64,000 nucleotides of DNA from Epilithonimonas zeae (lineage in GTDB: Bacteria > Bacteroidota > Bacteroidia > Flavobacteriales > Weeksellaceae), in assembly GCF_900141765.1 (NCBI RefSeq), contig NZ_FSRK01000003.1:124001-188000 (forward strand), read 5' to 3'. Shown here in pieces: positions 1 through 12,011 of the stretch. The translations under genes were made by a program, and so were the position numbers. The notes beneath the pieces are model-generated. The model made no database searches and was not told the origin of the DNA. It saw only the letters and a program-made list of their open reading frames with translations. Every line of letters starts with the position of its first letter. The stretch's first letter is position 1.

Positions 1-404
1 GTCATATAAGGAACCGGACCTAAATATACATCTTGTACAACAGTCTGGAAATCTTCGTGCTCCGGATCTGTACAATATAATTTAAGTCTGGCTTTTAGAG
101 GAACGTTATACGTTAAACCTCTCTCTACGCACTCATCGATAGAATAACGTGGAGAATCTACCAGATAATCTAAAAATTCCAAAACGAATTGGTTTCTAGA
201 ATCTGTAATTGGGAAATTTTCCTGGAACGTTTTGTAAAGTGATTCATTCAAACGTTGCTCAGGAAGCGTGTCTAACTGGAAAAATTCCTTGAAAGACTGG
301 ATTTGGATATCCAAAAAGTCAGGTGTTTCGATTTTACCTTTCGCTGACGAAAAGTTGATTCTCTCTGTACCTTGAACTTTAGGAGCGGCCTGTGTTTTAC
401 TCAT
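1..404 (-). CDS. rpoB: RNA polymerase beta subunit, N-terminal part
   Basis: Partial gene running off the left edge. The 134 visible codons read from ATG at 404 and give the start of the beta subunit: a short leader ([18 protein letters not shown]), then the conserved stretches [15 protein letters not shown] and [19 protein letters not shown], and a C-terminal edge at YLGPVPYMT. Beta forms the catalytic core of RNA polymerase with beta-prime and carries the rifampicin pocket, which lies outside the window. It is separated from rplL by about 4.3 kb and three unrelated genes, and appears to have its own promoter and leader. Confidence 0.95.
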
Positions 405-690
405 AAAATTATAAGAAAAAGGGTTAAAAAATATTTTGTTTAAAAAAATATCAGACAAGATTTAAAAATAAAGAATCAGGTTTTTTGATTTTTGGCGCTA
501 TCAGAATAAACCTTAAATCCTTACTTATTAATCTTTTCTAACTGCAACGCCGGTATATCTTTTCACGACGTAATGCAAAATATTTTTATATCTAACGACG
601 AAACAATGTACATATAAACAAGAAATTCCCTTCCATAAAATGAAAGAGTTATAAATTGATTACAGTATATGAAATTATTAGCGCCAAAAG
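405..690 (-). ncRNA. Candidate structured leader RNA of rpoB
   Basis: This gene-free stretch is transcribed toward rpoB from the promoter at 696-727. Its predicted 5' end (690 to 680, CTTTTGGCGCTA in the RNA sense) is complementary to 490-500 (TAGCGCCAAAA), an 11-bp helix closing a loop of about 180 nt. Inside are two copies of CGTCGT followed by AGATAT (600-586 and 570-555). Two overlapping mini-ORFs are also present, 14 codons (636-592, ending Arg-Arg-stop) and 16 codons (613-563). The complementarity is visible directly. That it is a regulatory RNA or attenuator is inference. Confidence 0.5.
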
Positions 691-695
691 ATTTG

Positions 696-727
696 CAAAT
701 TTATATAAAATAATTGACATATACAAA
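696..727 (-). promoter_or_regulatory. rpoB promoter, Bacteroidota type
   Basis: On the minus strand TTTG (727-724), 20 nt, then TAAATTTG (703-696) matches the Bacteroidota sigma consensus TTTG / TAnnTTTG. Transcription would begin near 690, exactly where the self-complementary leader starts. The -33 element overlaps the tail of the upstream terminator. Confidence 0.7.
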
Positions 728-753
728 AAAACCACTTCACAAAGAAGTGGTTT
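722..753 (-). terminator. Terminator after the secreted-protein operon
   Basis: A perfect 10-bp stem (AAACCACTTC at 729-738 with GAAGTGGTTT at 744-753), 5-nt loop, followed on the minus strand by a T run. It closes the three-gene unit 777-4564 and insulates rpoB. Confidence 0.85.
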
Positions 754-776: not shown

Positions 777-1337
777 TTAAGGTTTAGTCCAGAAAGACCA
801 TTCTCTACCATTGTACAAAGCCAATTGCTGAGTTCCGGTCACATAGACCATCATTCCGGCACTTGGATTTACAATATCTGTATAGGAATTCACTCTTGGT
901 AAAATCATTGCTTTATTCGCATCTCCTAAAACCAAAATCCCTGGCGTTGTATCTGTGGCTGGCGTTCCACCAATCAAAGTTTTTGCTGTCGTATTTTCTG
1001 CATTGGCATCAGGAACATTGGCTGTTGTTGGAGCATAAGCTCCTGCAGACAGATCTGTCCAGCTAGTAACAGCTGTTGCGTTGGCTGTAGCAGCAGTTCC
1101 AAATTTAACTTTCTGATCCGTACTATCAAAAATCAAAGTTCCGGGAACTGCAGAAGTTACATTTACAGCAGCTGTTACCCAAGGCAAAACGACACCTCTT
1201 GCACCTCCTGTTGGATTACCAAACTCTAACGAAACCGTTGCATTTGCCGGCGTATATGGACTTGCTTTTCCAATTGTAACTTGGCCAAAAGAAATGCTTG
1301 AAATTAATATTAAGGATAATATTATATATGTTTTCAT
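777..1337 (-). CDS. Small secreted protein with two MMVY-type modules
   Basis: 186 residues with a clear signal peptide (residues 1-18, cleavage after SFG/Q). The rest is Ala/Thr/Val-rich and beta-prone. Two related stretches occur: GTLIFDSTDQKVKFG (about residues 66-80) and GMMVYVTGTQQLALYNGREW (about 160-180). The second closely resembles the C-terminus of the 824-residue product encoded just upstream (GMMVYDTTANCLKMYDGTGW), including the preceding LPRV/INRV segment. Similar endings recur in Bacteroidota surface proteins. The gene follows the 824-codon gene by 12 bp, so they are surely co-transcribed. Function unknown; structural or adhesive is inferred. Confidence 0.75.
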   Translation of the reverse strand: MKTYIILSLILISSISFGQVTIGKASPYTPANATVSLEFGNPTGGARGVVLPWVTAAVNVTSAVPGTLIFDSTDQKVKFGTAATANATAVTSWTDLSAGAYAPTTANVPDANAENTTAKTLIGGTPATDTTPGILVLGDANKAMILPRVNSYTDIVNPSAGMMVYVTGTQQLALYNGREWSFWTKP

Positions 1338-1349
1338 ATCGCTGTATTT

Positions 1350-3824
1350 TTATTGGTTAAAATTATTACACGTCTGTTTTGTATAGCAGTACCATCCAGT
1401 TCCGTCATACATTTTAAGACAATTAGCAGTGGTATCATAAACCATCATTCCAATCACGGCAGTGATTGAACTTAAAGAAGCTGTAGGAACTCTATTAATC
1501 ACAAAACCTTTTGTCTTTGCATCTAGTGCCGTATATGCTCCATTAATCCTAATCGGCCAGTCTCCCGTATTACCTCCCGCTCTAGCCAAAGCTGTAATCC
1601 CATGATTAGTTGGTAAAGCAGTTCCGCTTGTAGTAGCCGGACGGAAGCATCTTCCACACTCAATATCCGTAGTTGTAGCATTTTGAGATGTACCAATACT
1701 TTGTCCAATATCCGATGTCCCATCAGTGTTATCCACAAGACCTGCAAGGTTAGAAGGGTTTGTACCAGTATTTAAATTAAAGCCTGCATAGTTAACCAAT
1801 TGCGGAACGCCGCTTGCCGAAGGAGATGTGCTGATGATCTGAGCTGGTGTACCTGTAGTGACACCATTATAAATAGTTTTTATTTGACCGCGGTAAGCAT
1901 AATTAGCATCTCCAGCCGGCAATGTCATAGAATGAACCTGATCATAGCGTACAGCCTCACTACCTTCGATAGCATCAGGACAACCGTCGCCATCACTATC
2001 TACATCAAATTGATTAGAAACACCATCATTATCCGGATCACAGAAACCATTTTTGACACCATTTCCCCGGCCAGTGATGTAAGTAGGACCTACAACCAAT
2101 TGACTTAAAATTACAGTATTAGCTCCTGTTCTATTCCAGGTAATTGAATTGAATGTATTACCATTGTATAGCTGCAAAGGAAACAATTGACCACCACTGC
2201 TTTTGCTGCCATACATACTTACAGATCCATTTTTATGAATAATAATTCTAACCAAAGGATTAGCTGCTGTCCCTGTCATATTATATATTTGAGGCACAGT
2301 TCCATTACCATAAGTATTTCCGTCTACAAATCTGACATTGTCTGTTTGATCCGGCTGGAATTCTAATTTGGAGGTCGAAAGATTAACTCCATTAATATTT
2401 AAGTTAAATGAATTATCTAAAGTATATACATCGAAGATGAAACCCAAGTCGGCAGCTGGCGCATTAAAAGTTGCAGTATTACCATCTGCAATATTATAAT
2501 TAACATCCACTACACTTTCTGGACATTCGAAAATATCAAGAATCCCATCATTATCAGAATCCAGATCCAATATATCAGGAATACCGTCTCCATCCAGATC
2601 ACGCTCAATAACCGCATTAAATGTACAAGTTGTTGTACTTCCGTTGATATTATAGGTGAGAGTTCTAGTACCACCTGAGCCAGTCCCATTATAGGTAACA
2701 GGAATATCTATGTATGTTGTAGTGGAAGTTATTGTAACATCTGTAAATGTAGATGCAAAATCCGTTCCCGATACATTTATTCTATATGTTCCAGGACCAT
2801 AAACTGTAGAAATAGGCGCTCTAAGTGTTTTTGTAGAACTTACACCAGCAACAAATGGCGTTGTTTCTTGTATTGTCGCTCCTCCACAATTAAAAATGAA
2901 GGGTATGTAATAAGGAACTGAAGCCAAATCTTGGTTAGTTGCCCATAAACCACCTGTTATTCCAGTATATGTTCTAATATATGTCGAAACACCAGTAGAT
3001 ATATTAATAGTATAAACCGCCAATTCTGTTCCTGGATTACCATTTACAGAAACAGCATAAACCAATCCGTTTAGATATGCAATACCTCTCACGTTTCCTA
3101 CTGTAGTACTGCTGCTAACGGTATTATCACCACTAGAAGTCCCTACAGGACCGGTTAGTTGTACAACACGAGTAGCAACTCTTGTAGTTGGATCAATCTT
3201 ATATAAGTGTCTTGTAACTGTAGCTCCGTTTGTATTCTGTACAATCACATAGATGAAGTTTTGATAATCAAAAAATGTATCTGTTGCCCATATTGTAGAT
3301 GTATTACCACCTGTATTATTCCAAATAGCATCACTGGCAGGAGCTGTTACAGCTCCCAAATCTGTACTCGTAGGATAAATTTGGTACAAATTTTTACTTG
3401 TTGTGCTAAACCCATATGCAAGCCCAGACGGATCACCATTTGCCTTTGGAACATTATTTGTCCCGATCCCTCCAATAAGATTGCCTGCTGGGGTTATCTG
3501 ACCTGTCGATTGTGATCCTGTAGCTGGTAAATATTTAAATATTGTACTACCAGCAGCTGTGTTAGAGTGCAAAAAAGCTAAACTTGTAGGATTTCCCCCA
3601 GGAGTATCATAACCAACAGCAAGATTACTGATAAAATTCTGGTTACCTGTAGAATAATTAGGTGCCGCCAGTGGAGTTGGAAGTACTGCAGGCACTCCGG
3701 TAATATCATAAACTCTTCCAGTAGCTGACAACGAAAGATATAATCTATCCACTACTTGCGAAAATAGCATTTGATTTGCAACAAGCAGAAACACTACTGT
3801 AAAAAGTAGATTTAATTTTTTCAT
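1350..3824 (-). CDS. Large secreted protein with DUF6923-like region and Ca-binding type-3 repeats
   Basis: 824 residues. A signal peptide (1-22, ends LFS/Q) is followed by a propeller-like N-terminal region of about 300 residues (LYLSLSATGRVYDITG, LYKIDPTTRVATRV) that I read as DUF6923-like. Asp-rich thrombospondin type-3 style segments follow at about 410-435 (DLDGDGIPDILDLDSDNDG) and about 600-620 (DPDNDGVSNQFDVDSDGDG); these usually bind calcium. The C-terminus carries the GMMVYDTTANCLKMYDG module shared with the downstream gene product. It is probably exported, yet I see no standard type IX sorting domain. Its location between rplL and rpoB is unusual. Confidence 0.75.
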   Translation of the reverse strand: MKKLNLLFTVVFLLVANQMLFSQVVDRLYLSLSATGRVYDITGVPAVLPTPLAAPNYSTGNQNFISNLAVGYDTPGGNPTSLAFLHSNTAAGSTIFKYLPATGSQSTGQITPAGNLIGGIGTNNVPKANGDPSGLAYGFSTTSKNLYQIYPTSTDLGAVTAPASDAIWNNTGGNTSTIWATDTFFDYQNFIYVIVQNTNGATVTRHLYKIDPTTRVATRVVQLTGPVGTSSGDNTVSSSTTVGNVRGIAYLNGLVYAVSVNGNPGTELAVYTINISTGVSTYIRTYTGITGGLWATNQDLASVPYYIPFIFNCGGATIQETTPFVAGVSSTKTLRAPISTVYGPGTYRINVSGTDFASTFTDVTITSTTTYIDIPVTYNGTGSGGTRTLTYNINGSTTTCTFNAVIERDLDGDGIPDILDLDSDNDGILDIFECPESVVDVNYNIADGNTATFNAPAADLGFIFDVYTLDNSFNLNINGVNLSTSKLEFQPDQTDNVRFVDGNTYGNGTVPQIYNMTGTAANPLVRIIIHKNGSVSMYGSKSSGGQLFPLQLYNGNTFNSITWNRTGANTVILSQLVVGPTYITGRGNGVKNGFCDPDNDGVSNQFDVDSDGDGCPDAIEGSEAVRYDQVHSMTLPAGDANYAYRGQIKTIYNGVTTGTPAQIISTSPSASGVPQLVNYAGFNLNTGTNPSNLAGLVDNTDGTSDIGQSIGTSQNATTTDIECGRCFRPATTSGTALPTNHGITALARAGGNTGDWPIRINGAYTALDAKTKGFVINRVPTASLSSITAVIGMMVYDTTANCLKMYDGTGWYCYTKQTCNNFNQ

Positions 3825-3857
3825 AAAAAATTTATTATTATTGAAAATAAGATTCCT

Positions 3858-3879
3858 TTGAGAAAAAAGAATTTCTCAA
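3858..3879 (-). other. Intercistronic hairpin
   Basis: TTGAGAAA (3858-3865) and TTTCTCAA (3872-3879) form an 8-bp stem between the 218-codon and 824-codon genes. No T run follows on the minus strand, so it looks like an mRNA processing or stability element rather than a terminator. Confidence 0.4.
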
Positions 3880-3907
3880 GAAATGTGAGTGTAAAAAAAT
3901 TTAATGA

Positions 3908-4564
3908 TTAAATTAAATCAGTAGGTGGGGGTCTTACAGAAAAACTAGAAACGTTTATCTGCAATCTTGAATTATCATTTTTATAAAAACAACTACTAAA
4001 GTGTAAGAATATTAATGAAGTATTTTCTGGATTAGCAGAAGAATTCAAAAAATATTTAGAATAGTGATAATCGTTACTCGGCGATACAAATGAACCATTT
4101 ATTGAACTAACGCCAGCAAGGAATTTACCATCGCTATAACCTTTAGAAATGTGCAGATCGATTTTCTTTTTAGGAAGATCTACTTTCCTACTATCTTTTA
4201 ATTTTTTAGCAGCCAACAAATCAACCTCTTCCTTAATCTTAGGCTGTAGTTTCTTCGTTGGTTCATCTGAATTCTTTGCAACAATCTTTAATTCATCATT
4301 ATTGATTTTGATGACTTTCGAGTATTGCTGTATTGTTTTACTTTTGGAAATCTGCTCGTTAAAAGAAGCATCTTTAGAATAGATTACCGCATCTCCGGCA
4401 GTAATAATCAGTCCAGACGAAACAGGCTCCTGTGTTTGTGTTTCCTGAGCAGAAAGAGAATTTAGAAAAAGAAATAAAAGTATAACAGAAAATTGCCAGG
4501 ATTTAGATAACAAACCAGCATAATCTTTTACATTCGCAAAGGAAGGCAATAAATTTTTTTTCAC
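3908..4564 (-). CDS. Secreted hypothetical protein
   Basis: 218 residues, not recognised. A hydrophobic segment at about 26-40 ends LSAQ, consistent with a signal peptide that has an unusually long N-region. The middle is Lys/Asp-rich (about 95-140) and the last 70 residues are polar with aromatic and Ser residues, ending SVRPPPTDLI. The only usable start is GTG at 4564, because an in-frame stop lies 7-9 nt further out. A TAATTTTG promoter box (4576-4569) sits directly upstream, so the mRNA would be leaderless or nearly so. First gene of the unit inserted between rplL and rpoB. Confidence 0.6.
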   Translation of the reverse strand: MKKNLLPSFANVKDYAGLLSKSWQFSVILLFLFLNSLSAQETQTQEPVSSGLIITAGDAVIYSKDASFNEQISKSKTIQQYSKVIKINNDELKIVAKNSDEPTKKLQPKIKEEVDLLAAKKLKDSRKVDLPKKKIDLHISKGYSDGKFLAGVSSINGSFVSPSNDYHYSKYFLNSSANPENTSLIFLHFSSCFYKNDNSRLQINVSSFSVRPPPTDLI

Positions 4565-11699: not shown

Positions 11700-11965
11700 G
11701 ATTTAACGCAAAGTCCGCAAAGACACTTCGACAAGCTCAGCATAAACTTCAACTCATTAAAGTTGCATAATTTATAAAGGTAGTTTGTCATTGTGTAGGA
11801 ATCTCAGCGGTTTAGATTCCTACGGAATAATAAAGTTGTGTTTTGATAGTGGCTTTTGATTTGGACGACAAAATCCCTAGCCCCGATAGTAACGGCATCC
11901 TTTTTTGTCATTGTGCTGAGTAATTTCTAAAGATTGCTTCACTTCGTTCACAATGACAAAAAAGA
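11700..11965. repeat. Mosaic of interspersed intergenic repeats
   Basis: The gene-free stretch 11663-12046 has no credible ORF. It holds a GCAAAGTCCGCAAAGACAC-type segment (about 11709-11727), CTTCGACAAGCTCAGCATAA (about 11727-11746), a 10-bp inverted repeat GTAGGAATCT / AGATTCCTAC (11795-11804 and 11814-11823) just after TTTGTCATTGTG, and a 15-bp perfect inverted repeat TTTTTTGTCATTGTG (11901-11915) / complement (11949-11963). TTTGTCATTGTG thus occurs twice. This looks like nested REP/MITE-like elements. Confidence 0.65.
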
Positions 11966-12011
11966 TATAGTGGATAGCGGGATTAAGCTCCTAAAAAAAT
12001 CTTTAATCAAA

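Follow-up and report, generated by a model that had tools for sequence, protein, structure and literature searches.

The closest described systems include leaders of both polymerase and ribosomal protein genes. Lacto-rpoB (RF01709), from Lactobacillales, is presented in the passages on it in PMC2864571 and PMC7724050 as a predicted cis-regulatory structured RNA that takes its name from rpoB. The relevant part of PMC10931766 describes autogenous control of E. coli rpoBC that is independent of the L10 control of rplJL (citing Passador and Linn 1989), as well as the L10(L12)4 leader, with attenuation of B. subtilis rplJL and long alternative leader structures. The HK022 putRNA appears in the portion of PMC9378689 concerned as a nascent RNA acting directly on RNA polymerase, and a section of PMC7247131 gives 20 ribosomal leader candidates (2020), including Flavobacteria S4, S15, and S16. 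A search of open-licence papers for rpoB leaders or structured RNAs in Bacteroidetes, Weeksellaceae, or Chryseobacterium retrieved no description. A 2017 motif survey reportedly contained 224 candidates and was compared here through Rfam 15 only.

Within the window (the 64,000-nucleotide stretch of Epilithonimonas zeae DNA analyzed here), rpoB is preceded by a leader of ∼285 nt that we propose, with roughly even confidence, to be a conserved, pseudoknotted, cis-acting 5' leader RNA dedicated to rpoB-rpoC of one family. It resembles Lacto-rpoB, the closest named family, in its location, which was examined and found to be before rpoB, but Lacto-rpoB has 58 model positions, belongs to another phylum, and is unrelated by model: RF01709 matched none of four family genomes at E ≤ 1, with a positive Lactococcus lactis control, and was unlisted in a cmscan of 300-800 at E ≤ 10. 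That Rfam cmscan, a check suggested in an earlier note on this DNA, gave no family at the gathering score in the leader, Lacto-rpoB included; the weak listings at E ≤ 10 were RefA9 (27 bits versus 49) and PK-HAV (22.8 versus 50), with terminator-like alignments, and 6S RNA (RF00013, RF01685) was unlisted at E ≤ 10 in the same 300-800 region. The target operon is shared with the E. coli autogenous system; unlike that system, for which the description in PMC10931766 includes no comparable leader structure, rpoB has its own promoter here. Long alternative structures and the gene neighbourhood are shared with the L10(L12)4 leader, but the gene is different, and the RF00557 model match (13.6 bits, E 9.9) is below the gathering score of 44 and lies at 715-800, upstream of the start site. 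The HK022 putRNA is a phage element and a works-like analogy only, with no sequence relation claimed. Like the 2020 candidates, which that section of PMC7247131 describes as lineage-restricted leader RNAs in related bacteria, the leader is confined to a lineage in the genomes searched, but the word rpoB occurs nowhere in the main text of PMC7247131. Mimicry of rRNA by sequence similarity was considered and rejected, with 100 of 200 shuffles as good as P3 against the genome's rRNA contig and 88 of 100 as good for the whole leader. By our own reading, the RNA would form a new leader-RNA family dedicated to rpoBC.

Position and structure of the leader

The rpoB gene, its leader, its promoter, and the terminator abutting that promoter are on the minus strand. 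The N-terminal part of rpoB occupies 3..404 (ATG at 404-402), rpoC is downstream and outside the window, and the leader RNA covers 405..691, its 5' end being predicted at ∼690 from the promoter position. The consensus promoter (727-696, start near 690) that the earlier note had reported was recovered element by element: sequence reading of 696..727 gave a Bacteroidota-type promoter, TTTG-N20-TAAATTTG, composed of the −33 TTTG at 727-724, a 20-nt spacer, and TAAATTTG at 703-696, with a predicted start at ∼691-689. The promoter is abutted by the intrinsic terminator of the upstream gene at 729..753 (10-bp stem and T run). Farther upstream, the end of rplL (4681) precedes a perfect 13-bp terminator hairpin with a T run, and the interval up to the terminator at 753-729 and the rpoB promoter holds three genes of 218, 824, and 186 codons (window 777-4564), for which a Pfam search returned no match. 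Because the rplL hairpin, the three genes, the terminator, and a separate promoter intervene, rpoB is probably transcribed apart from rplJL here, in agreement with the uncoupling stated in the earlier note. In some same-genus relatives the end of rplL is close upstream of the leader, as compared with the three-gene interval in this genome.

The 5'-terminal helix, here called P1, pairs the predicted RNA 5' terminus (679..689) with 490..500 and was identified by inverted repeat and by covariation. Both the 11-bp pairing and the spacing of about 85 nt between the helix and the rpoB ATG had been given previously, and both held: an inverted-repeat tool recovered a perfect 11-nt repeat, followed by 85 counted nt and then the ATG. 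By length the repeat was unremarkable, with 13 other pairs, mostly A+T-rich, ranking before it in the 701-base region; a perfect 11-bp repeat with at least 5 G/C was found in none of 2,000 dinucleotide shuffles of the leader, and the duplex energy of −16.9 kcal/mol was matched by 1 of 2,000. The 288-nt leader fold had a z of −3.0 (2 of 200 shuffles equally good) and the 208-nt fold a z of −2.3 (8 of 200). The nested minimum-energy fold omitted P1 when computed for the whole leader and included it for the shorter stretch.

Two hairpins follow P1. P2 (CUCUUUCA...UGGAAGGG, 628..648) was obtained by hairpin search, RNAalifold, and covariation count, and covaries; the idea that its CUCUU represents a boxA was discarded, as no CTCTTT occurs on the rRNA contig within 183 nt upstream of 16S. 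P3 (544..576) consists of 3 bp, a 2-nt pyrimidine bulge, 6 bp, and a nearly invariant 13-nt loop at 565-553 that starts UGAAAAGAUAUA. Of two CGTCGT...AGATAT copies noticed earlier, the downstream one (570-555) is conserved in P3, whereas the upstream one (600-588) is not kept in relatives.

Covariation was examined in 22 same-genus leaders, one of them before a decayed rpoB, in a plain MAFFT alignment. Unguided RNAalifold returned the 5'-end helix of the earlier note together with P2, P3, and the B:C pairing described below. Paired cells amounted to 96.9% versus 94.2% in shuffles, and changes on both sides affected 7 pairs and 20 cells versus 2.4 and 4.9. One of the five measures was not clearly above shuffles, namely further pair types (15 versus 13.1, with 50 of 500 shuffles reaching 15). 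When the partner was slid by 1-3 columns, at most 54.6% of cells were paired and at most 8 were double-changed. The earlier note had made its case for the helix depend on compensatory changes among relatives, and such changes were present, with 7 cells of P1 alone changed on both sides in the genus and, between genera, the arms replaced in concert. Compensatory changes above the controls, which are the mark of a conserved structured RNA, were thus found and, judged from these alignments, the rpoB leader is a real RNA structure kept by matched mutations.

Across Weeksellaceae, the P1 arms take about a dozen sequences with complementarity maintained, and the arm pairs can be wholly different between genera (TTTTGGCGCTA/TAGCGCCAAAA, TTTTGGGCTTA/TAGCCCAAAA, GAAGTTATCC/GGATAACTTC, GTTTGAAGC/GCTTCAAAC, and TTTTGGCACA/TGTGCCAAAA). 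For 67 non-redundant leaders with a recognizable box (the last TTTGC-type box; five further leaders had no box under this rule and were left out of P1 scoring), the mean duplex energy was −15.8 kcal/mol for the leader's own arms, −15.9 for arms of the same type, and −10.7 for those of another type. None of 20,000 random matchings was as good as the own pairing, nor was any of 100,000 when one leader was taken per arm type (13 leaders). P1 reached −12 kcal/mol or better in 61 of the 67 leaders and was weak in L073, L080, L082, L110, L113, and L120. The distance from the G of the −7 TTTG to the first P1 base was 6 or 7 bases in 42 of 61 leaders. The terminal helix of the RNA takes many sequences provided that pairing with a loop ∼180 nt away persists.

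For P3, 72 distinct sequences were gathered by an exact core pattern, by which the constancy of the loop is partly built in. One stem pair was C-G in 46, U-A in 23, and G-C in 1; the next was C-G in 60, U-G in 7, and U-A in 5; and the third was unpaired in 27 of the 72. Changes on both sides occurred at one pair in 24 and at another in 5 sequences. Two of the five P3 covariation measures were not clearly above shuffles, double-changed pairs (reached by 281 of 500) and further pair types (140 of 500) being no better than the controls. Among 124 loci found by DNA similarity or by the R1 model described below, for which the loop was not required, 121 had the exact loop, and the other three comprised two weak matches and a stray one. 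A loop that stays constant while its stem changes yet remains paired suggests a binding hairpin.

A purine-rich stretch 3' of P3 (508..539) can pair with a pyrimidine-rich stretch 5' of segment B (453..484), the two being 72% complementary; this conserved helix, P4, was obtained by inverted repeat and energy test. The P1 3' arm sits in the apical loop of P4, so that P1 crosses P4 and a pseudoknot results. The earlier note had P1 closing a domain of ∼180 nt; the pairing stood, but the simple closing stem did not, and the nested model was replaced by the pseudoknot once P4 was recognized. The P4 test used 57 of the 67 leaders (10 were dropped, six for weak P1 and four for a misplaced or short arm), and mean energies were −18.2 kcal/mol for own, −14.3 for cross, and −11.7 for shuffled pairings, with none of 20,000 matchings as good. 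Because only 21 of the 57 leaders ranked their own P4 partner among the five best, part of this signal is composition. By eye, P1 and P4 are apparently shortened or lost in L239, L201, and L083.

Occurrence and replacement in Weeksellaceae genomes

Searched by DNA similarity, 21 of the 23 same-genus genomes carried the leader, the two misses being 73% and 88% complete. A covariance model of P2 and P3 built from 21 leaders (R1) matched 258 of 296 Weeksellaceae genomes and 26 of 33 genera, nearly always once each. Among the 38 family genomes with no R1 match, rpoB was looked for in ten and found in 7; one of these (L086) had its leader cut by a contig end, five had no leader, and one was not read. 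In five family genera examined the arrangement was rplL, hairpin, and rpoB with no leader. The R1 search of the order gave 50/296 matches, including two outside the family that were marginal (E 0.006 and 0.009) and were unconfirmed by a second model, R2, comprising P3 only and built from 72 sequences. In a class sample of 395 genomes R2 had 3 matches, all in Weeksellaceae, and none in the remaining 392, of which the 20 listed were all outside the family. R2 was also run on 18 family genomes that lacked a good match to R1 and gave two weak matches (G062, E 0.03; G064, E 0.06).

An rpoB start lay downstream, by rule, of 120 of 123 core copies; of the three exceptions, two were the same broken leader of G020 and one was the leader before the decayed rpoB copy in G004. 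A core-pattern scan of named genomes gave at least 118 places, and among the matches listed there were 80 loci, of which a script put 75 in front of an rpoB frame, our own reading put one in front of a frame-shifted rpoB, and four were cut off. The leader core was absent from all 23 loci of other families of the order (L140-L162). In 18 of these 23, a pattern search found a hairpin, GGTTTAGG...CCTAAACC-TTTT, between rplL and rpoB, which perhaps represents an old rplL-rpoB attenuator or processing site; by eye, the same hairpin is present in several family loci (L074, L079, and the L087-L092 group). A phage origin of the leader was discarded, as no viral contig had the core pattern.

In a tree built from the N-terminal parts of 43 RpoB sequences, 28 of the 29 rows that bear a leader fell into one clade with 100/100 support, together with L086, in which the leader is seen in part. 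The exception, L060, from the genus of Moheibacter sediminis, lay outside the clade beside leader-less genera (support 94/91). The entries of that genus (L060, L110, and L205) all have the leader, and the RpoB of L060 is the one placed in the tree. This placement may reflect either transfer of the leader or its old presence with (several) losses.

Leaders have also been replaced. In G020 (L015, L023), an insertion that holds a weakly integrase-like fragment (PF13683, E 0.008, under the cut-off) interrupts P3 and so breaks the native leader; rpoB itself is preceded by a second, complete leader with 0.90 similarity to that of Soonwooa buanensis. In G004 (L017, L024) the intact rpoB follows a Soonwooa-like leader (0.89), and 8 kb upstream of this gene lies a decayed rpoB copy whose own leader is unbroken. 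The presence of a complete leader next to the working rpoB in both genomes suggests selection.

Alternative pairings before the start codon

Three short segments lie around P3 and the start codon. Segment A (AAAAATATTTTG, 576..587), found as an inverted repeat, flanks P3 on the 5' side and can pair with segment C (427..438), which ends 22 nt before the AUG and is the alternative partner of A or B; segment B (445..452), identified by RNAalifold and a pairing scan, forms a weak local hairpin with C (437-430). Of 135 leaders, 127 could form A:C with 10 or more contiguous bp, against 3.6% in shuffles, and 122 could form B:C with 8 or more, the latter being a count without a shuffle control. The scan left out L118, L128, L207, and entries with a loop insert in view; on inspection by eye, the low A:C counts of L174, L193, and L218 come from start codons picked wrongly. 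Nearly all leaders examined could thus form both pairings, which are mutually exclusive and near the start codon. Since A, B, and C are near-palindromic (AAAATATTTT being almost self-complementary), some of the complementarity among them arises automatically, and information comes only from lineages with changed segments.

L076 has changed all three segments (A UUAAUUU, C AAAUUAA, B UAAUUUU) and retained both pairings; its own A:C is −7.6 kcal/mol versus −3.5 and −6.1 with standard partners. L080, with A UUUUUUUGC, C GCAAAAAU, and a new B:C hairpin, also retained both; its own A:C is −8.5 kcal/mol and its A with standard C −2.1, and standard A with its C is again −8.5. In L082, A and C were lost together. 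L081 speaks against A:C, with its own pair at −5.3 kcal/mol and its A with standard C at −6.8. Within the genus (22 leaders) B:C is invariant, and in the ordinary cases folded it amounts to −1.2 to −2.6 kcal/mol. In L118 and L128 the B:C loop holds a small insert rich in G+C, which strengthens the local hairpin to −9.1 versus −1.2 kcal/mol, with the flanking arms kept. The comparisons argue with moderate strength that C has two mutually exclusive partners, A and B.

Two kinds of variant leader differ from this arrangement. In two genera (L074 and L079), A, P3, B, and C come after rplL or its hairpin, no box was found, and P1 is not evident; the core seems to work without a promoter of its own. 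In one MAG (G035), represented by L083 (1535-1650) and the identical L226, only promoter, P3, and terminator are retained. P3 starts 35 nt after the −7 box, and the 3' half of P3 doubles as the 5' arm in a perfect 13-bp terminator (CCGGCGTTGCTGA...TCAGCAACGCCGG plus T8; −25.8 kcal/mol versus −5.0 for P3), so P3 and terminator are mutually exclusive. Among 168 entries scanned, duplicates included, a G+C-containing terminator between P3 and the AUG was present in these two, both from the same MAG. This lineage seems to have replaced the A/B/C output with a transcription attenuator.

Proposed function and its alternatives

The compensatory changes and the position before rpoB favor what the earlier note had envisaged, a cis-regulatory RNA for RNA polymerase synthesis, and this is the best reading; the regulation we infer. 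The leader probably adjusts the amount of polymerase made. In the mechanism we propose, the P3 loop would be the binding site of a putative trans factor. With the factor bound, A would pair with C and stack on P3, a bulky domain would be held against the ribosome-loading region, and rpoB expression would fall; with the factor free, B would pair with C and the start region would be insulated. The pseudoknot would cap the 5' end and fix the fold, and it may protect the mRNA. Our best guess for the factor is RNA polymerase or its beta/beta' subunits, which would make the control autogenous. The more specific idea that the leader serves as a natural RNA polymerase aptamer, with the P3 loop binding free or elongating enzyme and the A:C/B:C switch as output, is possible but rather doubtful. 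If true, the polymerase would gauge how much beta and beta' is made by means of an RNA within the message that encodes them. How the amount of RNA polymerase is set has long been asked, and with a defined RNA target for the feedback on rpoBC the question would become testable. The leader is large, widespread in the family, and before rpoB where examined, and the P3 hairpin can be changed and used as bait.

The output could instead be transcription attenuation, in which factor-stabilized P3 and A:C would antiterminate and P4 or B:C with the U run would terminate before rpoB. The MAG with exclusive P3 and terminator has the textbook attenuator layout, and in most leaders a T5-T6 run closes segment C (by eye), but the other 166 of 168 entries had no G+C-containing terminator by scan, B:C is below the strength of a standard terminator, and L080 lost the U run yet kept a stronger B:C hairpin; we regard attenuation as a tentative possibility. 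An mRNA stability element, with the 5' end tied in a helix that blocks 5'-end-dependent decay and the rest serving as scaffold, would fit a P1 that, irrespective of sequence, begins where the RNA 5' end is expected; it would leave unexplained both the nearly invariant P3 loop and the leaders of L074 and L079 with neither promoter box nor P1 found, and it appears unlikely.

The same two genera, in which a promoter was not found and the leader follows rplL or its hairpin, weigh against a trans-acting small RNA released from the rpoB leader by processing or termination to regulate other genes or the polymerase. A large stable structure with its own promoter would suit such an RNA, but it was found only upstream of rpoB in the loci examined, and we consider this very improbable. 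Still less credence is given to a conserved leader peptide encoded by the P3 stretch (TTG CAY TAC NYY GTG AAA AGA TAT ACC ...). By eye, the frame is open for ∼12 codons in many relatives, but changes at paired positions are compensated, the amino acid of the NYY codon varies freely, and neither start nor stop is conserved. Elsewhere in the window, a Flavo-1 RNA (RF01705) lies at 11875-11988 on the plus strand (69.4 bits).
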